Below the pieces are notes generated by a model. The model ran no database searches, was not told the origin of the DNA, and was given only the letters and a program-made list of their open reading frames with translations. Shown here piece by piece: positions 1,365 to 16,185 of a DNA stretch of 64,000 nt; positions within the stretch are counted from its first letter, which is position 1, and every line of letters starts with the position of its first letter. The position numbers and the translations under genes were made by a program. The stretch comes from Actinomycetes bacterium (GTDB lineage: Bacteria > Actinomycetota > Acidimicrobiia > Acidimicrobiales > RAAP-2). The stretch lies in the NCBI GenBank assembly GCA_021844425.1, contig JAKBTL010000087.1, forward strand, positions 1 to 64,000, given 5' to 3'.

Positions 1365-3566
1365 ATGACCGTTCGGCCGCCCACCTTGGAGCGTCTCGCC
1401 GAGGCGGAAGGACCGACATCGCCCGAAGTGCTCTTCCGAGAAGCACGCCGGCGGCGCAGGCGGCGCTGGGTGCTCGGATCGGCCGTTGCCGTCGTGACTG
1501 CGGCGATCGCCATCTCCTTCGGGGTCGGTACGAACGGTCCAGGGCGCCGATCGCATCCTTCGAGCACGCCGACCACCCCAGCGCCCTCGGGTGTCGCGCC
1601 GACCGTTCCAAAGACCACGCTGGCGAGCCTGCCCGTCGGCCCGGCACGCATCACATTCACAACAGGCATGGCCTTTCTCAACGCCACAGACGGCTACGCG
1701 ATCTTCAGGACCGGTCCATACGGAGCGACATCCCAGAAGACATGCGGCCATCTCTTCGTCGGGAAGACGACCGACGGCGGCGGTCAGTTCAGGTCGGTCG
1801 CAGAGCTCCCTGGATGCGCCGCGAACGCCATCACGTTCGACGACCAAGGAGACGGCTTCGTCTACGGCCCCGGGCTCTACGTCACCCACGACGGCGGCAG
1901 CACCTGGGTCGCCCAGAAGGAGCCGGGCAACGTGCTTTCGGTTCGATCGGTGGGCACCTCGATTTGGATGCTCGTGAGCAAATGCCCTCAAGGGCAGCCG
2001 AGTACAAGCCACCCGGAGCACTGCCCCGTGGCAGTCCTCGCGTCTTCAGATGGGGGCAAGGTGTGGCACCCAAAGGTGTTCCCTTCGACAGCGCTAGTTT
2101 CCACAGCAGGGGGGAGTGACCCCCTGTCCATGGTGAGGATTGGCGTGTCGGCCGGCTACGTCGTCTTGGCACCGCCCCAACAGGACCAACCGATGGCGAC
2201 CACGACGTCTGGTTCTGTTCCCTTGTGGTCCACCTCCGACGCCGGCGGGTCCTGGGTGAAGCGCGAGATTCCTTGCGGGACGCTTGGCAACGTCGCAACA
2301 CCTCAGGAGAAGACGCCGAGTGGTGCCGTGGTCTCGGGGGCGCCCACAGGGACCCTCTTTGCGATCTGCGGCTATGCGTATCCCGGCCAGGACAACTGGT
2401 CGCAGTACTGGACGGTGCTCACCTCGGCAGATGGGGGCGTGCGCTGGTCGAAGGTCGCGAGCCACGTGTTCGGTGGGCACCTCGGCAAGCTCGACGCGGT
2501 GTCAGCGACCACCGCCTTCGAGCTCGGCTTTCACGGCTCGCTCATGAAGACGACCGATGGAGGCGTCTCTTGGTCGTCGAGCGGGGTGGGGGTCGTCACA
2601 AGCCCCTACGCCCTCGAGTTCTTCACGCCCACAGACGGGGTCGTCCTCGACGCAAACGCGCTGTGGCACACGAGCGACGGCGGGGCCTCGTGGACGCAAG
2701 TCGTCCCCACCGTGGTCGCCACATCGGCGCCAGCGTGCACGGCGAGCCAGTTGCAGGTGGGCCGGGGGCGACGGGCCAGTGCAGACGGGCACATCTTGGA
2801 CGTGGTGCTCCTCACGAACACCGGGACCGTCTGCACCCTCAGTGGTTGGCCCCTTCTCTTCGGCACATCGCCTTCGGGCAAACGGTCTTTGCCCGTCGGG
2901 TACTACACCTGGTTCGGGACACTCGTCCCCGCCGTCCTCTCCCACGGGGAACAGGGCCAGCTCTGGCTACAGACCACAACGACATGCGGACGAGCCACGC
3001 ACGGGCGCGTCGACAACGTCATCCTCGACCTCCCCGGTCGTGGCGGCACACTCACTTTGACGGGGCTCTCGTACACACTGGCCTGCGGGATCTCAGAGAC
3101 CCAGCTCGGCATCCCTCGGAAGTCCGCGGCTGGGCTCGGCGGTGTTGCGAGCTTGAAGGTCGAGCTATCCGGCCTGCCTGTCACAGTCATCGGCGGCAGC
3201 GTGCTGCACTACACGGTCACGCTCTACAACCTCAACAGTGTGACCGTGAAGATGTTGCCCTGCCCGCGCTACACGGTGGTCTTCCACACCGCCACAGGCA
3301 CATCCAAGCGTAAACGTGTGCTCGCCCGCGACACGGGGTCGTTCGCCTGCCGCACCGTCGGGAGCATCCCGCCTGGCGGGACGGCGCATGTCAGACTCTC
3401 TGTCCGAGCACCAAAGGTCACGCACATCACGACGACGGGTTTCACCTGGAAGTTCGACGTGCCCGGTGTGGTCACACCCCCCAGCAGCACATCGACAACC
3501 GGTATCGCCAGGTCCGGGATGAAGACCCTCACAGCTCGGGCGGCCGCTCAGAACGGTGTCAAGTGA
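1365..3566 (+). CDS. Membrane-anchored Asp-box (YCF48/BNR-like) beta-propeller with C-terminal DUF4232-like domain
   Basis: This 733-residue protein has a cytoplasmic N-terminus with a long Arg run (residues about 27-34), one transmembrane helix (about 36-53) and a Ser/Thr/Pro linker, followed by an extracellular part. Repeated Asp-boxes (THDGGSTW, SSDGGKVW, TSDAGGSW, SADGGVRW, TTDGGVSW, TSDGGASW) indicate a sialidase/YCF48-type beta-propeller over about residues 95-455. A Cys-containing DUF4232-like beta domain follows (from CTASQLQVGRG), then a further Ig-like beta region with two cysteines. No catalytic site is visible, so a ligand-binding or surface sensor role is more likely than hydrolysis. 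It is coupled to the GntR regulator in front and has a shorter paralogue downstream (3682-5016). Confidence 0.85.
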   Translation: MTVRPPTLERLAEAEGPTSPEVLFREARRRRRRRWVLGSAVAVVTAAIAISFGVGTNGPGRRSHPSSTPTTPAPSGVAPTVPKTTLASLPVGPARITFTTGMAFLNATDGYAIFRTGPYGATSQKTCGHLFVGKTTDGGGQFRSVAELPGCAANAITFDDQGDGFVYGPGLYVTHDGGSTWVAQKEPGNVLSVRSVGTSIWMLVSKCPQGQPSTSHPEHCPVAVLASSDGGKVWHPKVFPSTALVSTAGGSDPLSMVRIGVSAGYVVLAPPQQDQPMATTTSGSVPLWSTSDAGGSWVKREIPCGTLGNVATPQEKTPSGAVVSGAPTGTLFAICGYAYPGQDNWSQYWTVLTSADGGVRWSKVASHVFGGHLGKLDAVSATTAFELGFHGSLMKTTDGGVSWSSSGVGVVTSPYALEFFTPTDGVVLDANALWHTSDGGASWTQVVPTVVATSAPACTASQLQVGRGRRASADGHILDVVLLTNTGTVCTLSGWPLLFGTSPSGKRSLPVGYYTWFGTLVPAVLSHGEQGQLWLQTTTTCGRATHGRVDNVILDLPGRGGTLTLTGLSYTLACGISETQLGIPRKSAAGLGGVASLKVELSGLPVTVIGGSVLHYTVTLYNLNSVTVKMLPCPRYTVVFHTATGTSKRKRVLARDTGSFACRTVGSIPPGGTAHVRLSVRAPKVTHITTTGFTWKFDVPGVVTPPSSTSTTGIARSGMKTLTARAAAQNGVK

Positions 3567-3642
3567 GGCTCCGCGTGCTCTTGTGCACTCAGCGGAGCGT
3601 TGCGACGCCAGCGCGTGATCGCTGCACCCGACACCACATCGA

Positions 3643-3681
3643 AGAGCGAACTCATCGCGATGATCGAGGCGGTCCGCTGAG
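3643..3681 (+). pseudogene. Relic 3' end of a duplicated GntR regulator gene
   Basis: The 13 codons KSELIAMIEAVR-stop directly before the second Asp-box gene match the last 13 codons of the GntR gene at 1019-1363, at nearly identical DNA and with synonymous changes. Upstream of them no GntR domain can be read. This is the footprint of a tandem duplication of the regulator + propeller unit in which the second regulator has been lost except for its tail. The junction with the next gene (TGA-G-ATG) is also conserved. The rest of 3567-3642 shows no gene. Confidence 0.8.
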
Positions 3682-5016
3682 ATGACGGTGCGGCCGCCCA
3701 CCTTGGAGCACCCGGTCGAGGCGGGAGTTCCGCCTCCGCCCGACGTCCTCTTCAATGAGGCCCGCCAGCGGCGCAGGCGGCGCTGGATACGGGTACTTGC
3801 GGTGCTCGTCGTCGCCGCAGCAGGCGCAGGGATCAGCTATGGCGCAATCGGCCACGGCGGCCGTGCCCCCACATCGAAGAACGCTGCCCCCTCTTCCAAC
3901 AGCAAGGCGCCGGCGAAGTCCACCCGCTCTGCGACCAGCGGGTCATTGTGCGGAAGCGGCGCCGTCGACGTGACGAACTGTCTGGTAGCGCTCTCCTTCG
4001 TCTCGTCCGAGGTGGGCTTCGGTGTATATGGCCCCGTGTCGGGGCGGCCGCAGCTCGTCTCCACCACCGACGGCGGCTCGACGTGGCACGACGTGGGGCG
4101 CGCCCCAGTCGGGTACGGCCCCGTCGCGATCGATTTGCCCACCCTCACCTTCGTGGACGCGTCCAACGGCGTCGAGTACGGGACAAGGGGCGCCTTCGTC
4201 ACCCACGATGGCGGTCGTAGCTGGGCACCGATCCCCGTCTCGGGCCGGGTGGTCGCGAGCACCGCCGTCGGACGCCGCCTCTGGCTCACCGACACGACCT
4301 GTCCGGTGAGTCCGTCTACAGCACCGTGCACCGTCGGCGTTGAAGCATCCACTGACGCCGGCCGCACGTGGCGGGCGCTCGTCCTCCCGTCCGGGCCGTA
4401 TCGCTACGCCCAGACCGCCGTCGGACCTGGGGGCACGTTGGTCGTGGCCGAGTGGGCCGACCAGGAGGGCTACGTCAGCAACAACCCTGGCGTGCTGCTG
4501 GTAAGCACTGATGGTGGCGAGAGCTGGCAGACGACCCCTCTGCCTTGCCCAGTGGACTTCCGCTTGGGGGGACAGCTGTCCCTGGCTCCGTCGTCGCGCA
4601 CCGTTTGGTTGGTCTGCAGCGCCAACGGGGCAGTCGGACTCCGTCCAAATGTCGTGTACCGCTCGACCGACCTCGGCGCCTCATGGGAGGGAGAATCGAG
4701 CTTCGGTCCGCTCACAACCACCCTGCCACCGGGCGCACCCAACGGCACGATCGAAGTGCTTGCAGCTCGATCGAGCACCGACGCCTGGGTGCTTGAGATG
4801 AACCGGGGCGGGCTGCTCGCGACCAGCGACGGCGGCCGCAGCTGGCACAACGCCATGCCTTCGACCATACAGAGGGGCATCGACACACTGCGTGACACGC
4901 TCGACATGGTCAGCCCCAACGACGCGTACTTGGCCGCGCACGCCTTGTCGACCACCGACCATGGCGGACTGTGGCGCACCGAAGACGGCGGTCGAACCTG
5001 GCACCGCCTTCGGTAG
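3682..5016 (+). CDS. Membrane-anchored Asp-box (YCF48/BNR-like) beta-propeller, paralogue
   Basis: This 444-residue paralogue of the preceding protein shares its N-terminus (MTVRPPTLE, then the Arg-run RQRRRRRW and one transmembrane helix at about 35-53), a Ser/Ala-rich linker and an extracellular propeller with Asp-boxes (TTDGGSTW, THDGGRSW, STDAGRTW, STDGGESW, TSDGGRSW, TEDGGRTW). It lacks the DUF4232-like and Ig-like C-terminal domains of the 733-residue copy and ends right after the last Asp-box. The start is fixed by conservation with the upstream gene. No hydrolase residues are evident. Probably an envelope-exposed binding or sensing protein of unknown partner. Confidence 0.82.
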   Translation: MTVRPPTLEHPVEAGVPPPPDVLFNEARQRRRRRWIRVLAVLVVAAAGAGISYGAIGHGGRAPTSKNAAPSSNSKAPAKSTRSATSGSLCGSGAVDVTNCLVALSFVSSEVGFGVYGPVSGRPQLVSTTDGGSTWHDVGRAPVGYGPVAIDLPTLTFVDASNGVEYGTRGAFVTHDGGRSWAPIPVSGRVVASTAVGRRLWLTDTTCPVSPSTAPCTVGVEASTDAGRTWRALVLPSGPYRYAQTAVGPGGTLVVAEWADQEGYVSNNPGVLLVSTDGGESWQTTPLPCPVDFRLGGQLSLAPSSRTVWLVCSANGAVGLRPNVVYRSTDLGASWEGESSFGPLTTTLPPGAPNGTIEVLAARSSTDAWVLEMNRGGLLATSDGGRSWHNAMPSTIQRGIDTLRDTLDMVSPNDAYLAAHALSTTDHGGLWRTEDGGRTWHRLR

Positions 5017-5178
5017 CAGCGCGGCCTAGTTCTGAAGCTTCTGAAAGCTCCTCGGCTCATCTCCGAGGGAGCGGGAAGCCACACCGAGCTGAGCGCACGA
5101 GCACGCCCACAACGCGCGCCACCTACCGCCGGACGTCTACGACGTCACCCTCCGCCCCCGACCGCCGGCGGGGAGGCA

Positions 5179-5727
5179 CTACCAAATGCCAGCGGACGCT
5201 TCATTCACGAGCTGGAAGAGCTCCTTGACTGCAGTGTCGTCGTTGAGCAGTTGAACTCCATACCTGAACTCGAATACGGCATTGGCTGCGGCCAGGAAGT
5301 GCGCTGCTTCGCGGTCCTCGGGCTCCAGCGCACCGAGCCACTCCGCTACGTCTGACCAGCGCCACAGGCGACCCCGGTCGCGAGCATGAGAAATCGGAGC
5401 AGGGAATCCACCTCGGCCCCGTTTGCCCGTGATCAGCAGACGAACACTCTCCCGCGTTCGTTCCAACCGATCGGCGATCTCGGCCATGGTGACAATGTCG
5501 TCGGGCTCGATTCGACGAACGCGAAGGTTCTGCACTGACTCGACCTGACGAGCCGCGCTCAACACGGCATCAGCAAACGAAGGCGCCTCTCGAATGAACT
5601 CGCCATAGCCGGCGCCGTCGATCACGCCGAAGGTGGCGTCATCGCACCCTGCCTCGAAGAGCCCGCGAGCGACGTCCTCATCGGTGAGGTCACCGTCGAT
5701 CACAAGGGTGAACTCGTATTCACTCAT
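5179..5727 (-). CDS. HTH antitoxin-like partner of a HicA-like toxin (copy 1)
   Basis: The 182-residue protein has an N-terminal alpha/beta domain (residues 1-75, EYEFTLVIDGDLTDEDVARG) and a MerR/excisionase-like helix-turn-helix at about 90-120 (IVTMAEIADRLERTRESV). A Trp-containing segment (RLWRWSDVAEWLGAL) and a helical acidic tail follow. The ATG at 5727 overlaps the upstream toxin gene by 8 bases, so the pair is translationally coupled with the toxin first, as in hicAB. By family logic it should neutralise the toxin and bind the palindrome in the shared promoter. The antitoxin role is inferred from arrangement and HTH. An exact second copy is at 14123-14671. Confidence 0.72.
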   Translation of the reverse strand: MSEYEFTLVIDGDLTDEDVARGLFEAGCDDATFGVIDGAGYGEFIREAPSFADAVLSAARQVESVQNLRVRRIEPDDIVTMAEIADRLERTRESVRLLITGKRGRGGFPAPISHARDRGRLWRWSDVAEWLGALEPEDREAAHFLAAANAVFEFRYGVQLLNDDTAVKELFQLVNEASAGIW

Positions 5728-5962
5728 CGTCGGCCTCCTTTCTCTCGCACGCGTACACGGCTCGACGGATCTGGCGCCCGTGGTTCGACGGAACTTTCGG
5801 CGTCGACCAAATCCACACGAGGCAGTCATGACCTTCCCGTTGGCACGTTGCCTTCCCCCAAGGATGGCCAGGCCGCGGGGCTTCGACTTGCCACCCGTGC
5901 GCCTCGGCGAAGTCGAGCGCCTCCTCGACTTCCTTCTTCGGATGTCGGGGTCGATCAGTCAC
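5720..5962 (-). CDS. HicA-like toxin (putative mRNA interferase), copy 1
   Basis: An 80-residue basic protein with HicA-fold signatures: an N-terminal helix (KKEVEEALDFAEAHGWQVEA), a Gly-His turn (RPGHPWGKA) in the place of the HicA GSH motif, and a C-terminal NHGRQIRRAV helix typical of HicA relatives. HicA toxins cleave mRNA. The GTG at 5962 is preferred over the in-frame TTG at 5980 because that TTG overlaps the -10 box; the GTG sits about 9 bases after TATACT, so the transcript may be leaderless. It overlaps the antitoxin gene by 8 bases. An identical copy lies at 14664-14906. Function is not proven by sequence alone. Confidence 0.72.
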   Translation of the reverse strand: MTDRPRHPKKEVEEALDFAEAHGWQVEAPRPGHPWGKATCQREGHDCLVWIWSTPKVPSNHGRQIRRAVYACERKEADDE

Positions 5963-5971
5963 TCCGTTGAC

Positions 5972-6001
5972 AGTATACAACGGCCCGTTGCCTTATGTCA
6001 A
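5972..6001 (-). promoter_or_regulatory. Consensus sigma-70 promoter with palindromic operator in the spacer (TA copy 1)
   Basis: On the minus strand TTGACA (6001-5996) and TATACT (5977-5972) are separated by 18 bases. The spacer contains the perfect 6+1+6 palindrome CAACGGGCCGTTG (5978-5990). This is a near-ideal promoter for the toxin-antitoxin pair, with an obvious site for repression by the antitoxin or the complex. Confidence 0.85.
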
Positions 6002-6275
6002 CAACTCTCGAAGTGGAGCCACGAAGGTAGCGGTCGCTCCCTGTCCCCGAACGTCGCCGGCGCCTCCAGGCAACCCTCGAACGCCGGCTCGGCGGTCACT
6101 TTGTCAAGGCGGCGAAGGCAGGGCGCTAACTTTCGCGAGCTCTAGTTGCGGCTCAGGTCCGGCACGCCCAAGTGGGCCGGTCCATAGCTTCCCTGATCTG
6201 GGGCTGTGGAAGGTCCAGCCGCTATCGCGTGGACGCCCCCGACGAGAGTGGACGTTGCGGCAGGTCGGTCGCCCA

Positions 6276-6304
6276 TGCGAACACGCCACCAAGGCGTGTT
6301 CGCA
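6276..6304. other. 12-bp perfect hairpin in non-coding DNA, copy 1
   Basis: TGCGAACACGCC and GGCGTGTTCGCA flank a 5-base loop (ACCAA). A further half-site GGTGTTCGC follows at about 6318-6326. No T-run follows on either strand, so it is not a typical terminator. It lies in the roughly 500-base stretch 6002-6502, which holds no believable gene, between the toxin promoter and the transposase 3' end. It could be a protein-binding site, an element end or a structured RNA. Repeated at 15220-15248. Confidence 0.6.
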
Positions 6305-6465
6305 CCCGCGGGCACGCGGTGTTCGCAATTGGCACCAACTCGACGTGGGCGGGGCCCCGGGAGGGGTCAGAGCCGGGAAGAAGTGCCGTCGTGCGCCTGC
6401 GCGCCGGGTGGGACGCTCGGCACAGCGCCCACAGGGGCTTCGGCGCCGGTTTCCGGGCGCGCTGA

Positions 6466-6486
6466 CGCCGCCCCATCGGGGCGGCG
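6466..6486 (-). terminator. Strong GC hairpin downstream of the transposase gene
   Basis: GCCGCCCC and GGGGCGGC pair around a 3-base loop, about 17 bases after the transposase stop on the minus strand. No long U-tract follows, which is common for terminators in GC-rich actinobacteria. Repeated at 15410-15430. Confidence 0.5.
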
Positions 6487-6502
6487 GCTGAGGCGGAGGC
6501 GT

Positions 6503-8266
6503 TCAGGCGGCGGTCGCTGCAGGCGGCCCGGGGCCCGAGGGGGTGCCGAGGTCGGAGAAGCGCTTCGCTCGCCCCTTGCGTGGCGCCCGGGTCTTCTTGA
6601 CGGGCGGAAGGGCGTCAGGGTGTGTCGCCGCCAGCATGCGGTGGTCATGCAGCCACACGTGGATGCGGCTCCGGTTGTAGCCGACGATGGTGAAGGTGAG
6701 GAACAGCTTGATGCGCCCGCTGTCGCGCAGCCGGGTGTAGCCGCGCCCGATGTCGGTGATGGCGCCGTTCGCACCGTGAAGGAACGAGTTCGCGGTCTCG
6801 GCCAGCTGGCGCTTGCCCTCGGCCTTGGTCCACGCCGTCGTCCCGTAGAGGCACGGTTGGCGCAAGGGGAGCTGATCTGCCCCCGCCGTCACCGTGGAAA
6901 GGTCCGCTCCGTCGGGGAGGGTCACGAGCGGGGCCGTGCGGCTCTTGCGCATCGAGGCTGGCACCTGGCGGCTGCGCAACGTGCCGTTCTTGACCGGGTG
7001 AAGCCAGCGGGTGACGCCGTCGTCTCCCGGGGCCTTGATACATCCGTAGCGGTAGGCCGCCCGCTGGTCGAAGGTGGCCATGTAGGGGAGCTTCTCCTCC
7101 CACGTCGACCCTATGGGTGGCATGGGCGGCTTCACGAGCTCGTCGGGAAGGTCGGCGAAGAGGTGACCGTCGATGTAGCGCGCCGGTCCAATCCCGGGCT
7201 TCTCGCCGCGCTGGTGCTCCTTCAGCCTCGAGAACACGTGCAGTCCGAGCGCCTGGAGCGGATAGTGGAACCGCTCGGGCACCGACTGGATGTAGCCGCG
7301 GTCGACGACGACTCCGCGGCACAGCCCGCGGTCCTTCGCCCCCCTTGCCATCTCGACAGCAGGGTCGCCGCGGTGGCTGCCAGCCGGAACGAGGCGGGAG
7401 GTGACGACGACTTGGGGCACGTCGGGGCCGAACTTCACGTAGCTGACGCCGTCGGTCTTCTTGATGGTGGGAACCGCGATGCCGAGGTGCAGCTCCCTGC
7501 CCACGTAGGTGCCGCCTGGGTGCGAGGCGTTCCCGGTCCTGTAGCCGCCCCGGGCGTCGGTGTCCTTCGTGTAGACGTTGCGCCCGTCGGGCCCGGTGGC
7601 GAGAACCTTCGCCTTCTTCGACTTCTTCTTGCTCGCGTCGTCCGGCGGTTCGGCCTCCCCGTCGTAGTCGATGTCGGAAGGCTCGCCTTGGAGTCGCCCG
7701 CAGCTCTCCATCTCCGTGCCGTCGATGGCGAGGTCGACGTTGCCCACCATGCCCTTCATGACCACCTCGGGGACGGTGGCGTCGTACATGTGGCTCTCGA
7801 ACCATGTCCAGTCGCAGGTGACGACCGCTCCCGTGTCGGGGTCGAGCACCTCTTTGGCTGCGTCGAGGCGTGCAGACAGGCGCTTGTGGACGCGGTGGAC
7901 GAGGTCGTAGGAGCCGACCCGCCGCCAACCACGCATGCCGAGCCGGTCGAGCGCGGCGGGGCCGAAGCCGTTCAAGAGCCGCACCAAGTCGAGGAGCTTT
8001 GCCTTGTGGCCGTTCGTGGAGCCGTTCAAGGTGAGCACGACGAGGTAGCCCAAGACCGAGAGCCTCCGTCGCGGTGTGCGGGGCATCCCCATGAGGACCT
8101 CGAGCGGTCCGAGGACGCCGCTGCTTCGTACGTGCTCGGTCACCGCGGTGAACTCGCGTTCGTTGTGCGACCAGGTGGAGGTGAGGATAAGTCGCTGGGA
8201 CTTTGGAAGGTCGCGTCGGGTCGTGCGCTTGTCGCCAGCCGTCTTCGGGTCCGAGGTGCTTGCCAT
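6503..8266 (-). CDS. DDE-transposase-like protein (second gene of a two-gene element)
   Basis: This 587-residue protein starts at the ATG at 8266, which shares its A with the upstream stop (TGATG). The central part looks like an RNase-H-fold transposase: a beta-strand Asp in NVDLAIDGTEME, a second Asp in GVVVDRGYIQ, and downstream segments (VFSRLKEHQRG, TIVGYNRSRIHVWLHDH) where the third acidic residue would lie. The acidic triad is proposed by pattern, not by alignment. A Lys/Glu-rich insertion (about residues 200-225) and a basic C-terminus are also present. I do not recognise a named IS family. The last 121 codons recur exactly at 15447-15811. The longer N-terminal reading (to 8674) overlaps the upstream gene and is not used. 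Confidence 0.65.
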   Translation of the reverse strand: MASTSDPKTAGDKRTTRRDLPKSQRLILTSTWSHNEREFTAVTEHVRSSGVLGPLEVLMGMPRTPRRRLSVLGYLVVLTLNGSTNGHKAKLLDLVRLLNGFGPAALDRLGMRGWRRVGSYDLVHRVHKRLSARLDAAKEVLDPDTGAVVTCDWTWFESHMYDATVPEVVMKGMVGNVDLAIDGTEMESCGRLQGEPSDIDYDGEAEPPDDASKKKSKKAKVLATGPDGRNVYTKDTDARGGYRTGNASHPGGTYVGRELHLGIAVPTIKKTDGVSYVKFGPDVPQVVVTSRLVPAGSHRGDPAVEMARGAKDRGLCRGVVVDRGYIQSVPERFHYPLQALGLHVFSRLKEHQRGEKPGIGPARYIDGHLFADLPDELVKPPMPPIGSTWEEKLPYMATFDQRAAYRYGCIKAPGDDGVTRWLHPVKNGTLRSRQVPASMRKSRTAPLVTLPDGADLSTVTAGADQLPLRQPCLYGTTAWTKAEGKRQLAETANSFLHGANGAITDIGRGYTRLRDSGRIKLFLTFTIVGYNRSRIHVWLHDHRMLAATHPDALPPVKKTRAPRKGRAKRFSDLGTPSGPGPPAATAA

Positions 8267-9255
8267 CACGCACCCGCCAGCTGGGTCCAGGCCTCGCCGT
8301 CGGCGAGCGGGCGCACGAAGCCGAGGAGGTCGCCCAACGAGCCGAACGTGCGCATGCCTGCCGCTTGCAGGAGGGTTGGGAGCTGGGTCCCCGCCTCGAG
8401 GTGCGCGACGAGCCACGTGGAGCGAAGCCGCGCCGGCGAGAACGGGATGCAGCCGCCGTCGATGATGACGTCGGCTGCGAACTCCGAGGACGAGTTCTTC
8501 GACACCTTGCGGTCGCCGATGAGCAGCCCCTCCCCCGCCGCTGCGGCCAGCCCCAAGAGGTCTTCGGCGAAGCCGGCGCGCACGACGACACGGCGAGCGG
8601 CAGGGTCGGGCACCTCGACCACCACGAGGCCACCCAACTTCTTGACGGCGGTACCCCTGACCTTCGTGTTCCATCGTCCGTCGAGGCCCGCCCCGAGACC
8701 GAGCAGCGACGTCGCGCTGGCAGTCTGTCGTCGCAGCGCGGTCGCCTGGCGCGCGATGTCCCGCTCGATGAGGGCGAGCTCGGCCCGACTGTAGGGGGGC
8801 GGCAGCTTCGTGCGCGACAGCGGCGCGGGCAGCGGCTCCCAGGGGGCCGTCGCAGTGAGGGTTCTTCCCAGCCGGCGGAGGTCGCCACGTACCCGGCTCA
8901 TCGATGCCTCGGTGCCGCTGAGGCCCTCAGTGCAGTAGCGCTCGACGGTGTCGGGGTCGAGCACGTGCTCGACGTCGATGGGGATGTGTTGGTCGACGCA
9001 CCACGAGGTGAGGTAGGCAAGCGCGCGGATGCAGCGGCGCATCGTCTCGAGGCCAACGTTCAGGCGAAGCACCTGGGCCACGACGAGCTCTTGGACCTGT
9101 GGCCAGCGGGACTCGGAGAGACCGACCGGCACGTACGCGTGGACGTAGAGGGCCACTGGGTCGTCCACGGCGCGCGGGGTCGAGGTCGGGGTTCGCATGG
9201 GGAAGGCGTTGGCGGTGCGGGCTCGGTTGGGCATGGCGGCACCGTCCGGAGCCAT
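8266..9255 (-). CDS. Tyrosine-recombinase-like protein (first gene of the two-gene element)
   Basis: This 329-residue protein has a SAM-like helical N-terminal part (VERYCTEGLSGTEASMSRVR). Its C-terminal part resembles an integrase catalytic fold: GLGAGLDGRW at the usual Arg-I position, beta-strands, then RLRSTWLVAHLEAGTQLPTL at the HxxR/helix position. The nucleophilic Tyr expected after that is not evident (the segment reads AAGMRTFGSLGDLLGF), so it may be a non-catalytic DNA-binding relative. Its stop overlaps the start of the DDE-like gene by one base, implying a stoichiometric pair. It is divergent from the small HTH gene at 9352. Assignment rests on motif resemblance. Confidence 0.55.
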   Translation of the reverse strand: MAPDGAAMPNRARTANAFPMRTPTSTPRAVDDPVALYVHAYVPVGLSESRWPQVQELVVAQVLRLNVGLETMRRCIRALAYLTSWCVDQHIPIDVEHVLDPDTVERYCTEGLSGTEASMSRVRGDLRRLGRTLTATAPWEPLPAPLSRTKLPPPYSRAELALIERDIARQATALRRQTASATSLLGLGAGLDGRWNTKVRGTAVKKLGGLVVVEVPDPAARRVVVRAGFAEDLLGLAAAAGEGLLIGDRKVSKNSSSEFAADVIIDGGCIPFSPARLRSTWLVAHLEAGTQLPTLLQAAGMRTFGSLGDLLGFVRPLADGEAWTQLAGA

Positions 9256-9278
9256 CACGCCCTGTCAGTCGCTGATCT

Positions 9279-9293
9279 CGCGACTTAGTCGCG
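9279..9293. promoter_or_regulatory. Palindromic operator candidate between divergent element genes
   Basis: CGCGACTTAGTCGCG is a perfect 7+1+7 palindrome. A further half-site GCGCGACTTTG follows at 9304-9314. It lies 24 bases before the recombinase-like gene and 59 before the divergent HTH gene, where a shared autoregulatory site would be expected. Confidence 0.6.
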
Positions 9294-9351
9294 CCTTAGG
9301 GTAGCGCGACTTTGTAACGGTCGTGCCGGTTGCCGTGCCAGACTTTGGCCG

Positions 9352-9720
9352 ATGCCACCGGGCTTCCGCCCCGCCAGCTACCTCCTGAGACCGCGTGACT
9401 TCGGGGTCGTCGCGGACGCCGCGTGGCGGGCGGTGCCGACGGCGGAGCGTCCGAAGCTGGCGGTCGCGTACCTCCAGCACCGAATGGCAGTCGCGCTGCG
9501 CGGCCACCTCGGCTCGAATGCCGCGTCGCAGCTGGCCAGGAGATTCGGCGGGCTGTACCGCGAGGACTACTTCCGTCGGAAGCTCAACGGCCAGATCCCC
9601 TTCAACCTCACCGAGGTCATGGCAGTCTTGCTCGAGTTCGGCTCCGCGCTCGAGCCGATCGTTCTCAGCACCTCGACGCTGGTTCCGGAGATCCCCCTTA
9701 CATCGCGATCATCGAGCTGA
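9352..9720 (+). CDS. Small HTH-like putative regulator divergent from the element operon
   Basis: A 122-residue protein with no recognised family. Residues about 40-90 (QHRMAVALRGHLGSNAASQLARRFGG, split here for reading, then REDYFRRKLNGQIPFNLTEV) look like a Cro/C1-type helix-turn-helix in which the FRRKLNGQ segment would be the recognition helix. It is divergent from the recombinase/DDE pair with a palindrome between them, so it is the likely repressor of the element. No signal peptide. The ATG at 9352 is the first start; no clear ribosome-binding site is visible. The following 260 bases (9721-9980) hold no supportable gene. Confidence 0.55.
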   Translation: MPPGFRPASYLLRPRDFGVVADAAWRAVPTAERPKLAVAYLQHRMAVALRGHLGSNAASQLARRFGGLYREDYFRRKLNGQIPFNLTEVMAVLLEFGSALEPIVLSTSTLVPEIPLTSRSSS

Positions 9721-9980
9721 GCCGCGCATCCCGCGACGACAGCACGCGCCGCTCGCTCGCAACTCGAGCCCTCGTTCGGATGCCAGTGTCCGTTGCGGCG
9801 TGGGACAAGTTGCCAACTCTGCTCTGGCTGCTCGCGATCGTTGCGTGCCCATGAACGAATCCTCGGGGACGCGCCGCGCCGTGATAGTGGGACAGAGGAG
9901 CAGCGCGGTAGGCGACACTCCATCGCCCAATCGAGCCTCCGCCAAAGTGAACGCGGCGACTCGCGACAGCCAGTTGCCAC

Positions 9981-11228
9981 ATGGGACACTTGATCCTCGA
10001 GATGGGTGCTGGACATTGGCGCGGGGTAATCCCTTGGGCCTCCGTGGTCGTCGTCGCTGGCCTGGTTGGTGGCGCCGCCTGGTTTGGCGCGGCAGGGTTT
10101 CCTTCTTCCGCTTCTGATCGCCCCTCTCTTGCTCTTTCGCCGGTGGTTGTCACTCGGCTCTGCAATCCGCCGACGAAGTTCGCCGGCTACAGCTACCGAG
10201 CGCGCGGCCCGTTCACCCAGATCAGCGCCACGTGGAGGGTGCCTACTGTCACCAAGGCCGTCAAAACAGGGGTGGGCGTCGCTGTGTGGGTCGGCCTCGC
10301 CTCCAAGGCAGGGGCCTTCATCCAGCTTGGTACCGAGGTCCTCGCCCCGTCCGCAGGTGCATCGATCACCTATCACGGCGTCTGGGGAGCGACGCGCAGC
10401 TTCACTACCAAGGCCCACGACATCCTCGACCTCAGGCCCGGCGACGTCGTGAAGGCCGACATCTCGCGTGGGCGCAGTGGTGTGTGGCGCCTGCGGCTCG
10501 TCGACGTCACTCAAGACCACTCCGCCGCCTTCGTCGTGCACTACGCCACAGCCGCCACGTTCACAACAGCCCAGTGGTTCGAAGAAGACATGTCGCCACA
10601 CTGCACGATTCAGAGCTTTCTGGAGCCGGCACCGGTCACGGTCGGGGACCTTCGCCTCGACCGGACCGCGCCTCGCCTCTCCGATCGTTCGGAATCCGTC
10701 ATCGAGGCTCCGAACGGCATCGAGTTCGTCGCGAGCCCTCTCCACGACGACAGCTTCACTCTGGGCCCTCCTTCGGGCTTTTCTGCCCGCTACCTCCACG
10801 TCACGGCTCCGTTCAACGTCGCACTCGAGGAGTTCGAGGCTGACGTAGGAGCGGCGGCCAGGGCGGCGCACCCGACCCGCTATCGCACAGGGTCGGCTGA
10901 CGTGCAGTCCACAGCCGAAGTCGCCAAGGGTTTGAGCCTCGAAGCGGTCACAGCAGGCGAGCAGGCGATGGCGGTGGGCCGCCACGTTCTCGACGAGCTG
11001 GGACAACAGCGTTGGCCGGCAACGGCAAGCGCTCGCGTTGGAGCGCTCGTGCGCGCGGCGAGAGCGATGATCGCCGCCGTCGGGTCGATCATCGCTCGCT
11101 CTGAGCGCTCGACAGCGTGGACACTGGAACGACTTGTGCAGAGCGGCGGCCGAGTCGTGGCGGCTGCGAACCAGGTTCGCCAGCGGATCGGTCTGCCGCC
11201 CGCCGACACAGTGTTCGCACCCATGTGA
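9981..11228 (+). CDS. Peptidase G1 (eqolisin, glutamic endopeptidase) family protein, membrane-anchored
   Basis: The 415-residue protein has an N-terminal membrane helix (about 16-38), then a G1 domain at about residues 66-215. By comparison with scytalidoglutamic peptidase (catalytic Gln53 in ILQTG, Glu136 in AEFIIED), the dyad is retained as Gln115 (FIQLGTE) and Glu202 (AQWFEED); the WVG motif before the Gln is also kept (VWVGLAS). G1 enzymes are acid-active beta-sandwich endopeptidases, so extracytoplasmic action at low pH fits. The C-terminal 200 residues are helical, Ala-rich and not part of the known domain. A 104-aa gene follows with a GTGA overlap. Activity is inferred from the dyad only. 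Confidence 0.8.
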   Translation: MGHLILEMGAGHWRGVIPWASVVVVAGLVGGAAWFGAAGFPSSASDRPSLALSPVVVTRLCNPPTKFAGYSYRARGPFTQISATWRVPTVTKAVKTGVGVAVWVGLASKAGAFIQLGTEVLAPSAGASITYHGVWGATRSFTTKAHDILDLRPGDVVKADISRGRSGVWRLRLVDVTQDHSAAFVVHYATAATFTTAQWFEEDMSPHCTIQSFLEPAPVTVGDLRLDRTAPRLSDRSESVIEAPNGIEFVASPLHDDSFTLGPPSGFSARYLHVTAPFNVALEEFEADVGAAARAAHPTRYRTGSADVQSTAEVAKGLSLEAVTAGEQAMAVGRHVLDELGQQRWPATASARVGALVRAARAMIAAVGSIIARSERSTAWTLERLVQSGGRVVAAANQVRQRIGLPPADTVFAPM

Positions 11229-11539
11229 GCCGAGCGAGTGGCACCCTCATCTGGCGCGGGCGCGCATACACAACGGATCCCAAGAGCGCGGCGACTTCGA
11301 TCCGCAGCGACCTAGACCCCCGACTGCGAGTCGGCGAGCCAACGCTGGATCTTCGGGCCCTCGGCGTCACTGGAACGCAGGTCGAGCCGTCACGATGGAC
11401 CACCCCGCAGCTCCAGAACGGGTGGGCCACCTGCACTGCGTATGTTGCGGGTGGAAGCTGTGCCGCCTCCGCCGGTATCTCATTTGCCGTCGTGAGTGAG
11501 AACACCTGGGGAACGCTGACGCGCCACGACGCCGAGTGA
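11225..11539 (+). CDS. Hypothetical protein coupled to the G1 peptidase gene, 104 aa
   Basis: No family recognised. The GTG at 11225 overlaps the peptidase stop as GTGA, a coupling arrangement seen repeatedly in this genome, which is the main argument that it is real. The sequence is balanced rather than Arg-rich, with two cysteines close together near the end (GWATCTAYVAGGSC). No signal peptide is visible. It might be an accessory or inhibitor of the peptidase, but nothing in the sequence shows that. The 246 bases after it (11540-11785) contain no supportable gene. Confidence 0.4.
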   Translation: MSRASGTLIWRGRAYTTDPKSAATSIRSDLDPRLRVGEPTLDLRALGVTGTQVEPSRWTTPQLQNGWATCTAYVAGGSCAASAGISFAVVSENTWGTLTRHDAE

Positions 11540-11785
11540 CGTGCGGCGCAGATCCTTGGGGTGTGTTCTCCGGGGGCTGACAGACGCCGTAAGGACCGCC
11601 GAAGCCGACGTACGCGTCACGCACTTCGATGGGATAGCACCCCAAGCCCACGCCTGTGGACGGCGGTGGCTTGGGCGCCGGCGCCGTGTTGGGGGAGTGA
11701 GCGTTTGTCCAAAGGGATGTACGCGCGCCGCGAGAGCGGGCAGGGCGCGCTTCGGACGACCAGTCGGTGACAGCTGACAGGCGAA

Positions 11786-11968
11786 TTATGGGGAGGACTT
11801 CAAGATGTGGACGTGGACACCCACGCGCGCGCCCACATGGTGGATCACGGGTGGGATCAAGTAGTACACACGGTGGACGACTGGCTCACTGCGCGCGAAG
11901 GCGACCACCAAGCCGGCGACCAACGCGACGGTTCCGAGCAGTAGGCCGATCTTCAGCCACACGCGCAC
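11786..11968 (-). CDS. Small single-pass membrane peptide, 60 aa
   Basis: Starts at GTG with a short basic N-terminus followed by one hydrophobic helix (KIGLLLGTVALVAGLVVAFA, residues about 6-25) and a short extracytoplasmic tail. Unrecognised. It lies 18 bases downstream of the beta-domain gene at 11987-12238 on the same strand and could be its membrane partner. Short length makes the call uncertain. Confidence 0.4.
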   Translation of the reverse strand: MRVWLKIGLLLGTVALVAGLVVAFARSEPVVHRVYYLIPPVIHHVGARVGVHVHILKSSP

Positions 11969-11986
11969 AGGCCCGCCCCGAGCGAC

Positions 11987-12238
11987 TTACCGGACAGTCT
12001 CGTACATGACGAGGACTGTGGACTTGACCTGTCCTGCGCGCACGAAAAGGCGCGTCGGCTGGCTCCAATGCCTCCCGCCACTGATTTGCTCGCTCCGACC
12101 CTCGATGATGTAGGCGCCAGGAGGGAGGACGGCCTTCCAGTGGCCGCGGGTGGCCGTGGTCTTGTACGTCCTGCGGCCATGGTCGGTGACGAACCGAATC
12201 ATTCCGGAGAGCTTCATGTCGTGGAGCCCCGTGGGCAC
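11987..12238 (-). CDS. Beta-sandwich (carboxypeptidase-regulatory-like) domain protein, 5' end interrupted by IS1380
   Basis: The 83 readable residues look like a small prealbumin/carboxypeptidase-regulatory domain: an N-terminal strand, then TRGHWKAVLPPGAYIIEG (the LPPGxY turn is characteristic), then VRAGQVKSTVLVMYE. The frame stays open only up to the IS1380 end at 12262; joining the sequence across the IS (12256 to 13975) extends the same frame into the 1,837-bp repeat (residues MSRGAFRSFRGTF). This suggests that the original start was separated by the insertion. The GTG at 12238 may now serve as start. No enzymatic residues. Probably extracytoplasmic originally. Confidence 0.45.
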   Translation of the reverse strand: MPTGLHDMKLSGMIRFVTDHGRRTYKTTATRGHWKAVLPPGAYIIEGRSEQISGGRHWSQPTRLFVRAGQVKSTVLVMYETVR

Positions 12239-12261
12239 AGTGGCGACGAAGGTGCCTCTGA

Positions 12262-13974
12262 CCTACATCCGCGAGTAAGCCCCGCGAACACCCGTTCGAT
12301 ACGCGACAAAGTGCCTTTCACCTGGGAGAATGGAGGTTGAAAACGACCCATGACCCCGAGCGAAAGGCACCTGTCTGGTGGCAACGATAGCCAAACGCAA
12401 GGCCAAGGTGGTGCTGGGTGGCCATGACGGGCGGATCACCCCGCGAGCCGGCCTCCACCTCGTGGCGAAGCTCGACGAGCTGCTCGGCATCACCACTGCG
12501 ATCGACGCTGGGGCTCCCTCGATCAAGAAGCGCCGCCGCGGCCTTCTACTCGGCGGCCTGATGGTGGCAGCAGCCGAGACGATGCTCTCGGGCGGCGACT
12601 TCATGTCCGACCTCGACAACCAGCGCAAGGACGCAGCCGGACTCTCACTGCGGGCCGTGCCCGGCGTGCCGGCCTCGACCACGTTCATCGCGATCGCCAA
12701 GCGCTTCGACGCCCAAGCGCGCGCTCACGTCGAGCGGGCCAACGCGACCCTGGTAAAGAAGGCGTACGCGCTGGTTCCCGAACGACGACGGGTCGAGCTC
12801 GCCCGGCAGCGCCCGACGATCGACCTCGACCCCACCGACACCGAGGTCTACGGCCGGAACAAACGAGGCTCGGACTACAACTACCAGGGCCAGCGCGTCT
12901 ATCGCCCGCACCCCGCCGTGTGGGCGGAGGCCGGGTGGGCACTGGCCGCCGACTTCGGATCGGGAAGGACCGACCCGCGCCCCCAGGCGGCGGGACTGCT
13001 CAAACGGGCACTCGACGCGCTGCCCGAGGGGCTCTTGCGCCCGATCGTGCGGGCCGACTCGGGGTTCTTCGACCACAAGCTTGCAGACGTGGCGCTCTCG
13101 TCTGACTGCGACTACGCGATCGCGGTCAGGCGCACCGACGCGGTGTGGCGCTCGGAGCGCAAGATCCCTGATAGCGCCTGGCGCAGGGCGAAGCGTATGG
13201 ACGCAGAGGTGGCCGAGTGCGACTACTCGCCCACCGGGTGGCCGAGCGGTGCGCGTGTCATCTGCCGGCGGGTGAAGGTCTACGCCGCAGACCTCTCCGC
13301 CGACCCGCGCAGCCGCCGTCGGCGCACCATCGATCCCGCACAACTCAGCCTCCTTCGCGCAGGCGACGTGGCGTTCGCCTATGCGTACTCGTTCATCATC
13401 ACGAACCTCGACGGCGACATCATCGACATCGAGGCGTGGTTTCGCCTACGTGCCCGGGTCGAAGAGTCCATCAAGGACTCCAAGCTCGGCATGGCGATGC
13501 GCCACATGCCTTCGGGTTACGAGCCGGTGAACGCGATGTGGATGTGGGTGGCGTTGCTCGCCTTGAACATGTCGTCGTGGCTCCAGGCGCTCAGTGGTCA
13601 CGACGAGGCGAACGGCCGCGCTCATGGCAAGCGGCTGCGACGAGAGCTCATCTGCATCGCCGCACGCGTCACCCACCACGCGCGCCGAACCGAGGTCCAC
13701 GCCTCATGGGAGGACCATCTCGGCGCCTTCGGCGATACGTGGCGAGGACTCGACGCGCTGCTCGCCATCGGAAGCACGTAGCGCGCACGGGCAGCAACCG
13801 GTCGCGCTTGCGCGTCGATGACCCGGCGGCCGGCACCTCGAATGACAAGAACTCACACCCTTGGTCGAGCGCGCCTTCGAACCGCACCACGGCAGCCGCC
13901 GATGACTCGAGACCGGAGCGGTCTGCTCTGGCACTCCAGATCAGGACGTACCGAGGTCTACTCGCGGATGTAGG
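12262..13974 (+). mobile_element. IS1380-family insertion sequence, complete, with 5-bp target duplication
   Basis: Terminal inverted repeats CCTACATCCGCGAGTA (12262-12277) and TACTCGCGGATGTAGG (13959-13974) are perfect over 16 bases. Identical 5-bp sequences TCTGA flank them (12257-12261 and 13975-13979). The resulting 1,713-bp element holds one transposase gene, which fits the size of the family. An internal inverted repeat GTGCCTTTC/GAAAGGCAC (12311-12319, 12362-12370) lies just before the transposase start and could be a regulatory hairpin. Confidence 0.93.
12378..13781 (+). CDS. IS1380-family transposase
   Basis: This 467-residue DDE transposase is full length for the family. Visible features are the N-terminal GLHLVAKLDELLGI region, the first catalytic Asp region (RPTIDLDPTDTEVYGR), the second Asp (IVRADSGFFDHKLAD), and the Y-(2)-R-(3)-E-(6)-K-like block near the C-terminus (RLRARVEESIKDSKLGMAMR) carrying the Glu. 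Translation begins at a GTG (12378) inside the element. The frame is intact and the termini are preserved, so the element could still be active. It inserts and excises DNA at its inverted repeats. Bases 13782-13958 between the gene and the right end hold nothing else. Confidence 0.95.
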   Translation: MATIAKRKAKVVLGGHDGRITPRAGLHLVAKLDELLGITTAIDAGAPSIKKRRRGLLLGGLMVAAAETMLSGGDFMSDLDNQRKDAAGLSLRAVPGVPASTTFIAIAKRFDAQARAHVERANATLVKKAYALVPERRRVELARQRPTIDLDPTDTEVYGRNKRGSDYNYQGQRVYRPHPAVWAEAGWALAADFGSGRTDPRPQAAGLLKRALDALPEGLLRPIVRADSGFFDHKLADVALSSDCDYAIAVRRTDAVWRSERKIPDSAWRRAKRMDAEVAECDYSPTGWPSGARVICRRVKVYAADLSADPRSRRRRTIDPAQLSLLRAGDVAFAYAYSFIITNLDGDIIDIEAWFRLRARVEESIKDSKLGMAMRHMPSGYEPVNAMWMWVALLALNMSSWLQALSGHDEANGRAHGKRLRRELICIAARVTHHARRTEVHASWEDHLGAFGDTWRGLDALLAIGST

Positions 13975-14122
13975 TCTGAAGCTTCTGAAAGCTCCTCGGC
14001 TCATCTCCGAGGGAGCGGGAAGCCACACCGAGCTGAGCGCACGAGCACGCCCACAACGCGCGCCACCTACCGCCGGACGTCTACGACGTCACCCTCCGCC
14101 CCCGACCGCCGGCGGGGAGGCA

Positions 14123-14671
14123 CTACCAAATGCCAGCGGACGCTTCATTCACGAGCTGGAAGAGCTCCTTGACTGCAGTGTCGTCGTTGAGCAGTTGAAC
14201 TCCATACCTGAACTCGAATACGGCATTGGCTGCGGCCAGGAAGTGCGCTGCTTCGCGGTCCTCGGGCTCCAGCGCACCGAGCCACTCCGCTACGTCTGAC
14301 CAGCGCCACAGGCGACCCCGGTCGCGAGCATGAGAAATCGGAGCAGGGAATCCACCTCGGCCCCGTTTGCCCGTGATCAGCAGACGAACACTCTCCCGCG
14401 TTCGTTCCAACCGATCGGCGATCTCGGCCATGGTGACAATGTCGTCGGGCTCGATTCGACGAACGCGAAGGTTCTGCACTGACTCGACCTGACGAGCCGC
14501 GCTCAACACGGCATCAGCAAACGAAGGCGCCTCTCGAATGAACTCGCCATAGCCGGCGCCGTCGATCACGCCGAAGGTGGCGTCATCGCACCCTGCCTCG
14601 AAGAGCCCGCGAGCGACGTCCTCATCGGTGAGGTCACCGTCGATCACAAGGGTGAACTCGTATTCACTCAT
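14123..14671 (-). CDS. HTH antitoxin-like partner of a HicA-like toxin (copy 2)
   Basis: Residue-for-residue identical to the 182-residue protein at 5179-5727, including the N-terminal alpha/beta domain, the central helix-turn-helix and the acidic helical tail, and again overlapping the toxin gene by 8 bases. Because both copies are intact, antitoxin from one locus would be expected to neutralise toxin from the other and to repress both promoters. Loss of one copy would not cause post-segregational killing while the other remains. Downstream (13980-14122) is the repeat's non-coding 3' flank. Confidence 0.72.
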   Translation of the reverse strand: MSEYEFTLVIDGDLTDEDVARGLFEAGCDDATFGVIDGAGYGEFIREAPSFADAVLSAARQVESVQNLRVRRIEPDDIVTMAEIADRLERTRESVRLLITGKRGRGGFPAPISHARDRGRLWRWSDVAEWLGALEPEDREAAHFLAAANAVFEFRYGVQLLNDDTAVKELFQLVNEASAGIW

Positions 14672-14906
14672 CGTCGGCCTCCTTTCTCTCGCACGCGTAC
14701 ACGGCTCGACGGATCTGGCGCCCGTGGTTCGACGGAACTTTCGGCGTCGACCAAATCCACACGAGGCAGTCATGACCTTCCCGTTGGCACGTTGCCTTCC
14801 CCCAAGGATGGCCAGGCCGCGGGGCTTCGACTTGCCACCCGTGCGCCTCGGCGAAGTCGAGCGCCTCCTCGACTTCCTTCTTCGGATGTCGGGGTCGATC
14901 AGTCAC
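14664..14906 (-). CDS. HicA-like toxin (putative mRNA interferase), copy 2
   Basis: Identical to the 80-residue toxin at 5720-5962, with the GHPW turn and the NHGRQIRRAV helix, the same GTG start close behind the TATACT box and the same promoter. No degeneration separates the two copies, so the duplication is recent or kept uniform by gene conversion. Confidence 0.72.
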   Translation of the reverse strand: MTDRPRHPKKEVEEALDFAEAHGWQVEAPRPGHPWGKATCQREGHDCLVWIWSTPKVPSNHGRQIRRAVYACERKEADDE

Positions 14907-14915
14907 TCCGTTGAC

Positions 14916-14945
14916 AGTATACAACGGCCCGTTGCCTTATGTCAA
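14916..14945 (-). promoter_or_regulatory. Consensus sigma-70 promoter with palindromic operator in the spacer (TA copy 2)
   Basis: Exact copy of the promoter at 5972-6001: TTGACA, 18-base spacer containing CAACGGGCCGTTG (14922-14934), TATACT. Confidence 0.85.
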
Positions 14946-15219
14946 CAACTCTCGAAGTGGAGCCACGAAGGTAGCGGTCGCTCCCTGTCCCCGAACGTCG
15001 CCGGCGCCTCCAGGCAACCCTCGAACGCCGGCTCGGCGGTCACTTTGTCAAGGCGGCGAAGGCAGGGCGCTAACTTTCGCGAGCTCTAGTTGCGGCTCAG
15101 GTCCGGCACGCCCAAGTGGGCCGGTCCATAGCTTCCCTGATCTGGGGCTGTGGAAGGTCCAGCCGCTATCGCGTGGACGCCCCCGACGAGAGTGGACGTT
15201 GCGGCAGGTCGGTCGCCCA

Positions 15220-15248
15220 TGCGAACACGCCACCAAGGCGTGTTCGCA
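15220..15248. other. 12-bp perfect hairpin, copy 2
   Basis: Copy of the hairpin at 6276-6304 (TGCGAACACGCC, 5-base loop, GGCGTGTTCGCA) in the gene-free part of the second repeat (14946-15446). Confidence 0.6.
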
Positions 15249-15409
15249 CCCGCGGGCACGCGGTGTTCGCAATTGGCACCAACTCGACGTGGGCGGGGCC
15301 CCGGGAGGGGTCAGAGCCGGGAAGAAGTGCCGTCGTGCGCCTGCGCGCCGGGTGGGACGCTCGGCACAGCGCCCACAGGGGCTTCGGCGCCGGTTTCCGG
15401 GCGCGCTGA

Positions 15410-15430
15410 CGCCGCCCCATCGGGGCGGCG
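15410..15430 (-). terminator. GC hairpin downstream of the transposase fragment, copy 2
   Basis: Copy of the hairpin at 6466-6486 (GCCGCCCC, 3-base loop, GGGGCGGC). Confidence 0.45.
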
Positions 15431-15446
15431 GCTGAGGCGGAGGCGT

Positions 15447-15855
15447 TCAGGCGGCGGTCGCTGCAGGCGGCCCGGGGCCCGAGGGGGTGCCGAGGTCGGA
15501 GAAGCGCTTCGCTCGCCCCTTGCGTGGCGCCCGGGTCTTCTTGACGGGCGGAAGGGCGTCAGGGTGTGTCGCCGCCAGCATGCGGTGGTCATGCAGCCAC
15601 ACGTGGATGCGGCTCCGGTTGTAGCCGACGATGGTGAAGGTGAGGAACAGCTTGATGCGCCCGCTGTCGCGCAGCCGGGTGTAGCCGCGCCCGATGTCGG
15701 TGATGGCGCCGTTCGCACCGTGAAGGAACGAGTTCGCGGTCTCGGCCAGCTGGCGCTTGCCCTCGGCCTTGGTCCACGCCGTCGTCCCGTAGAGGCACGG
15801 TTGGCGCAAGGTGAGCTGGTCTGCCCCCACTCTCACCGTCGAGGGGTCCGCAGGC
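15447..15855 (-). pseudogene. C-terminal fragment of a DDE-transposase-like gene
   Basis: The last 121 codons equal those of the gene at 6503-8266. For about 15 codons further upstream the protein is similar but not identical (PSTVRVGADQLTLRQP against LSTVTAGADQLPLRQP), and beyond that no transposase is readable. So this is a truncated copy whose 3' part is identical and whose 5' edge comes from a diverged relative. That pattern fits recombination or gene conversion ending inside transposase homology. It runs directly into the MazF relic on the same strand. Confidence 0.85.
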
Positions 15856-16185
15856 TCAGCGGTCGCAGTCAACGGCGACTTCGAGCGCCTCACACAGCTG
15901 GCGCATCCTGACGTCGGCCAAGCGCCCGATCCGTTCGGTGAGCACGCCGAGGGCGACACTTTCGATCGCGTCCAAGTTGGCCACGCAGTGCTGTGGCACA
16001 GGGTCGTCGCCTGGCTCGAGGACAACCTCACTGTGCACGCCACGGATGGTCGTGGTGCACGGAGCGATGACCGCCCGCCGAAGGCGAGGAATGGCGGCGT
16101 CGCGCGATCACACGACCACCGGCCTTCGGCCAATGTCGGGAAGCTCACACCACCAGACGTCGCCCCGAGCGGGCAACGAGCTCAT
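15856..16185 (-). pseudogene. MazF-type toxin relic with an in-frame stop
   Basis: Reading from the ATG at 16185 gives a typical MazF start (RGDVWWCELPDIGRRPVVV). Codon 26 (16110-16108) is then TGA, where the family has a hydrophobic residue before the conserved SRD. The same frame continues SRDAAIPRLRRAVIAPCTTT, then EVVLEPGDD, CVANLDAIESV and IGRLADVRMRQLCEALEVAV to a stop at 15856. All other parts of the 110-codon gene are present, so inactivation looks recent or could be a sequencing error. MazF is an mRNA interferase. The start overlaps the antitoxin stop as ATGA. Confidence 0.85.

Follow-up and report, generated by a model that had tools for sequence, protein, structure and literature searches.

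Does a DNA segment that encodes both a tyrosine-recombinase-like protein and a DDE-transposase-like protein move by one enzyme or by the other, and what is left for the second protein to do? This question is raised by two overlapping genes, here called A and B, in the window, a stretch of 64,000 nucleotides from contig JAKBTL010000087.1 of an actinobacterial assembly (GCA_021844425.1). The pair had been singled out from sequence alone in an earlier note. We analyzed the window together with related genomes.

Genes A and B and the element that carries them

Gene B (6503-8266, minus strand) encodes 587 amino acids and is preceded by gene A (8266-9258, minus strand), which encodes 330. The stop codon of A and the start codon of B have one base in common (TGATG). 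It should be noted that the start codon of A is uncertain and that about 27 N-terminal residues of A are disordered in the model. A small HTH-like gene of 122 amino acids (9352-9720, plus strand) diverges from A. The perfect 15-base palindrome CGCGACTTAGTCGCG (9279-9293) is a candidate operator. Its arms are kept in the orthologous element of the congener G002, where the 15 bp differ solely at their central, unpaired base, and another half-site (GCGCGACTTT) is likewise conserved there. The layout and the conserved arms fit a regulatory circuit in which the product of the small gene probably acts on the palindrome to repress the A-B operon. The one-base overlap, the length of B, the divergent gene and the palindrome are all present as the earlier note had claimed.

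The searches of Pfam and NCBIfam with the window proteins A and B gave no match. The structure of A was predicted from ten homologs with a mean pLDDT of 79, and the model matched the recombinases Cre, XerH and XerA (Foldseek E 3e-6, probability 1.0), in agreement with the fold proposed earlier; the best PDB sequence-profile match was a Xer-type recombinase, a weak one (E 0.1). The window A combines a single helical domain at the N-terminus with a catalytic-domain fold of full length, and a zinc-finger region is absent. When the catalytic columns were set by canonical motif spacing rather than by a solved structure, the window protein was found to carry D at R-I, A at H-II, R at R-II, L at the position of the nucleophile and M at H-III. 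The C-terminal part of A is also free of tyrosine, which bears out the former remark that the nucleophilic residue is missing. Among 37 A proteins, R-II was present in all 37, the nucleophilic Tyr in 14, R-I in 5 and the His of the HxxR motif in 1. Judging by the model and these columns, A is a protein of the tyrosine-recombinase fold whose active site is lost in the clade of the window and partly lost elsewhere. The proteins that retain Tyr or R-I weaken the case for full inactivity across the whole family.

Meanwhile, the residues D182, D322 and E490 of B were invariant in the alignment of nine diverged homologs. Six of the nine matched the profile DDE_Tnp_1_6 and six of the nine the NCBIfam profile IS1182 (best E 1.7e-7), which the window B itself does not match. 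The structure search with B was weak (best E 0.08; model pLDDT 71), and its top matches were retroviral integrases and the mariner transposase Mos1. These results agree with the earlier guess of a DDE enzyme of the RNase-H type and, as far as alignments and profiles tell, B is a DDE transposase that remotely resembles those of IS1182. The D-D-E triad and the element ends described below suggest that B catalyzes transposition.

The interval 6467-9720, formerly taken for the element, is merely a part of it. The inverted ends and the ACCAA found on both sides delimit an element of 8,939 bp (6293-15231, minus strand in the A-B orientation) that is a member of a tandem array. The left target duplication, ACCAA or TTGGT on the opposite strand, occupies positions 6288-6292 and is the same in G002, and the right one occupies 15232-15236. 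The B-side terminal repeat GGCGTGTTCGCAC (6293-6305, plus strand) is followed 23 nt inward by a second copy of its core, GTGTTCGCA (6319-6327, plus strand), a spacing that is family-wide. The far-side terminal repeat (15219-15231, minus strand) reads ATGCGAACACGCC on the plus strand and is inverted relative to the B-side end. The same ATGCGAACACGCC on the plus strand marks the far-side end of the left neighbour element (6275-6287, minus strand). The right neighbour starts with its B-side end (15237-15249, plus strand) and holds a remnant of B, the last ~150 codons only (15450-15899, minus strand).

A direct repeat of 1,881 bp across the left junction (5027-6907, plus strand) is 99.5% identical to 13971-15851 across the right junction, and it is either a true duplication in the array or an effect of the assembly. 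The contig begins inside the array and the window copy adjoins no RNA gene. Copies of the left end were sought elsewhere in the same genome and none was present beyond the two of the array, so the RNA gene that once adjoined the array was not found. The element carries as cargo a Peptidase_A4-like protein of 415 amino acids (9981-11228, plus strand; profile match, E 1.3e-9), and the transposase of another IS (DDE_Tnp_1_4, IS1380-like) lies within it (12378-13781, plus strand). The window also holds two related adjacent BNR-repeat genes (1365-5016), 84% identical where they start, and, to the right of the array, several diverged repeats of 100-220 bp (17211-17962).

Pairing of A and B in Actinomycetota

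The A-B pairs were found in 26 of the 397 genomes (~7%) of a sample of the phylum Actinomycetota and in 82 of the 397 genomes, about one fifth, of a sample of the order. The reading put forward in the earlier note had been staked on the co-occurrence of the two families, and they co-occur widely, in dozens of genomes. Gene A stands directly upstream of B, with an overlap of 4 nt in 48 of 65 pairs and of 1 nt in four, the window included. The main groups are common to the tree of A and the tree of B. The dN/dS values of A and B, calculated for three pairs, ranged from 0.14 to 0.34; both genes are under purifying selection. The recurrence of the pair together with these values indicates that A and B are no chance pattern of open reading frames.

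The divergent regulator recurs beside A in other loci as well, and across loci A usually has a small divergent gene in front of it. Relatives of the small gene of the window occupy the same position in L092 and L123, likewise divergent, XRE-like genes diverge from A in nine loci, and HTH-like genes with weak Pfam matches precede A in L043 and L045. In about 20 loci (L113, L112, L056, L126, L163, L172 and L177 among them) the divergent gene belongs to DUF6788, a family of unknown function that occupies the place of the HTH regulator.

Two further layouts were seen. The elements of L099-L102 contain two tandem A genes each and are possibly a larger sub-type; in L099, L101 and L102 a different region lies directly 3' of B, and a nearby tRNA was not found. 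On the linear plasmid pSCL3 of Streptomyces clavuligerus (L155, 4116-7281), a regulator, A and B have the same layout, with no tRNA detected, and are annotated as a transcriptional regulator and hypothetical proteins.

Element ends at the 3' ends of tRNA and tmRNA genes

The tRNA and tmRNA genes were located using ARAGORN, and in many loci one of them lay just past B and convergent with it. In the first set of loci, the 3' end of an RNA gene was situated 100-270 nt past the stop codon in 30 of 51 B reading frames, compared with 8 of 2,251 other reading frames of the same loci. The extended set comprised 57 junctions, in which the distance from the stop of B to the RNA 3' end had a median of 206 nt (10th-90th percentile, 140-224 nt). 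Twelve of these junctions involve tmRNA and the others tRNAs of 12 isotypes (Leu, Ser, Ala, Val, Met, Cys, Tyr, Gly, Arg, Ile, Glu and Pro), and throughout them the element is oriented with B towards the RNA gene. Many of the remaining B loci contain a tRNA fragment that comes from the 3' half (L112, L094, L117), suggesting that this half alone may be enough as a target, and others are tandem junctions (L044, L048, L120 and the window).

At the B-side end, a 14-nt motif occurs twice in direct orientation, with exactly 23 nt from one copy to the next: a shift of 23 nt gave a mean of 8.53 matches out of 14, against 2.8-4.0 at every other shift tested. The sequence of the motif varies between lineages, and the far end of the elements has a single inverted copy. 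When the 3' end of the tRNA was taken as the boundary, 7 of 48 loci, compared with none of 240 shifted controls, had inverted ends of 14/20 or better together with an exact 5-bp duplication; relaxing the ends to 13/20 or better gave 10 loci and one control. A boundary-free search for inverted ends with a duplication showed no clear excess over the control, so that the separation appears only when the ends are tied to the tRNA border. The duplication mostly consists of the discriminator base, CCA and one further base, as in GCCAC (Ser), ACCAC (Ile) and ACCAA (Leu). As it comprises the discriminator base and four nucleotides, the RNA gene stays whole. L163 and L180 have clear ends and unequal 5-bp flanks, as seen when the duplication was no longer required. 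The delimited elements measure from 2,992 bp (L113) to 9,573 bp (L052), and in the shortest, A, B and a gene of the DUF6788 family leave room for nothing further. A clean empty site for L113 was sought within its genus and none was obtained.

A comparison of insertion sites in related strains had been proposed earlier, and presence or absence of the element at the orthologous tmRNA site was compared within the genus of the window. The orthologous element of G002 is 98.0% identical over 3,345 nt, with B and most of A deleted, and begins at tmRNA-ACCAA, the same ACCAA as in the window. In G001, a B gene of 73% identity with one in-frame stop is located at tmRNA-ACTCG. Judging by the positions of these two elements, the window lineage is likely to target the tmRNA gene ssrA. 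The array of G002 (L228, G002:C63; 418-424 and 6618-6635) starts with ACCAA beside tmRNA and ends with ACTCG, the tmRNA flank of other congeners; these unequal flanks may reflect nested elements or a coupling-type exchange. The tmRNA gene of the window's own genome (L035, G000:C136, about 1850-3350) is followed by ACTCG and then directly by a large-serine-recombinase-like gene, and G008 and G010 have similar sequence after tmRNA, which indicates that the 3' ends of ssrA are contested in the genus. In several other congeners of this genus the element end was absent from the tmRNA site. The earlier view of the locus stood as to both folds, the pairing and the divergent regulator, and it missed the true ends and the homing to tRNA and tmRNA 3' ends, which is the main feature.

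Roles of A and B and comparison with known systems

The reading that we favour, and regard as probable, is that these elements are a family of DNA transposons homing to tRNA and tmRNA genes, in which B would catalyze the reaction and A would select the target. The co-occurrence and translational coupling of the genes, the fold of A and the loss of its active site, the triad of B, the ends, the duplication and the target position are read directly from sequence; catalysis by B, the choice of target by A and repression by the small gene are inferred. According to this scheme, the catalytically dead A, as the DNA-binding partner of B, would recognize the RNA gene by its 3' part and direct or recruit B there. 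B would act on the terminal repeats and insert the element into a cut, staggered by 5 bp, at the border of the acceptor stem and the discriminator base, which would leave the RNA gene intact and create the 5-bp duplication. The product of the small divergent gene would repress the operon.

The same transposon could also work with B or a host factor picking the target and with A in an architectural or regulatory role, binding and bending the ends, for example at the motifs spaced by 23 nt. The conserved end architecture calls for a binder, and the divergence of A tracks target identity no better than that of B: the two are equally correlated with the target, and these comparative data could not separate them as determinants. 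However, the end motif could be bound by B just as well, A has a fold well suited to recognizing the target, as tRNA and tmRNA 3' ends are the classic targets of tyrosine integrases, and the precedent of TnsF favours a recombinase as the selector. We therefore consider this assignment of roles rather unlikely, though it deserves weight. It is very improbable that the elements are site-specific integrative ones in which A is or was an active integrase, possibly helped by a host recombinase, and B an accessory or passenger. The usual targets of integrases, the Tyr retained in part of the A proteins and the unequal flanks of a few elements fit such an origin, but A of the window clade is devoid of R-I, both His residues and Tyr, B keeps its triad in every aligned diverged homolog, and inverted-repeat ends with 5-bp duplications are the signature of DDE enzymes. 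An ordinary IS with a passenger gene, surviving next to tRNA genes because such intergenic sites are permissive, scarcely merits belief: genomic islands are indeed common at tRNA 3' flanks, but the delimited elements sit with base precision, the spacing from B is tight, its side towards the RNA gene is constant and its neighbour is always A.

Returning to the transposon with A as the selector, we searched the literature, subscription journals being mostly uncovered, and no description of the A-B pairing or of its target was found, TnsF and Dada being the nearest. We lean, somewhat less firmly, towards an unnamed class independent of Tn7, distributed Actinomycetota-wide, in which a dead recombinase would be the sole selector for an IS1182-like DDE enzyme at the discriminator base, with no AAA+/TniQ bridge.

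The elements share with tyrosine-recombinase integrative elements the recombinase fold and the tRNA/tmRNA 3'-end target that leaves the gene intact. They are set apart by their DDE enzyme and by inverted terminal repeats flanked by a 5-bp duplication, and the R-K-H-R-H/W-Y catalytic set of those integrases is absent from the window A. IS1182, the nearest curated profile for B, resembles them in its DDE enzyme and inverted repeats. IS1182 elements have one transposase gene, unlike the present layout in which A precedes and overlaps B, and no homing of theirs to tRNA genes is known.

Dada elements are animal DNA transposons that home to genes of small RNAs, tRNAs among them (PMC8869645). Unlike the A-B elements, they are eukaryotic and insert inside the tRNA gene, in the anticodon/A-box region, and the abstract names no recombinase-fold partner. 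Tsy resembles the A-B elements as a small non-Tn7 element with a recombinase-fold target selector, but it has two active tyrosine recombinases, no DDE enzyme and no inverted repeats, and it targets comM (PMC10293859).

The closest precedent is TnsF of the Tn7-like transposon Tn6022, a dead tyrosine recombinase that selects the target comM for DDE transposition (Faure et al. 2023, PMC10293859). Both systems thus combine DDE transposition and target-site duplications with a catalytically dead protein of the tyrosine-recombinase fold, the guiding role of A being presumed. Inverted ends and a fixed-length duplication also occur in Tn7-like elements, but they are common to many DDE transposons and non-diagnostic. 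Compared with the description of TnsF, the window A has neither N-terminal zinc fingers nor tandem CB domains nor a partial CAT domain. Tn6022 needs TnsA, TnsB, TnsC and TniQ, whereas the A-B elements have only A, B and the small gene, and the 2,992 bp of L113 lack room for the Tn7 core TnsB/TnsC/TniQ; a search of the window's own genome for TniQ was silent, as was its control. The dead recombinase as a selector is already known from Tn6022, and the A-B elements are without Tn7 components.

If the favoured reading is true, a second, independent dead tyrosine recombinase has been co-opted by a DDE transposon as its targeting module. It would explain the uncharacterised gene pairs of the order and phylum samples, place the DUF6788 family in a context and provide a minimal system for how a dead recombinase passes a target to a DDE enzyme, possibly also a tool for site-specific integration. 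Such a system would be far simpler than Tn6022, with two proteins, no AAA+/TniQ bridge and some complete elements of ~3 kb, and it would use an IS1182-like DDE enzyme and, instead of comM, tRNA and tmRNA genes, targets that are universal and are preserved by the 5-bp duplication.
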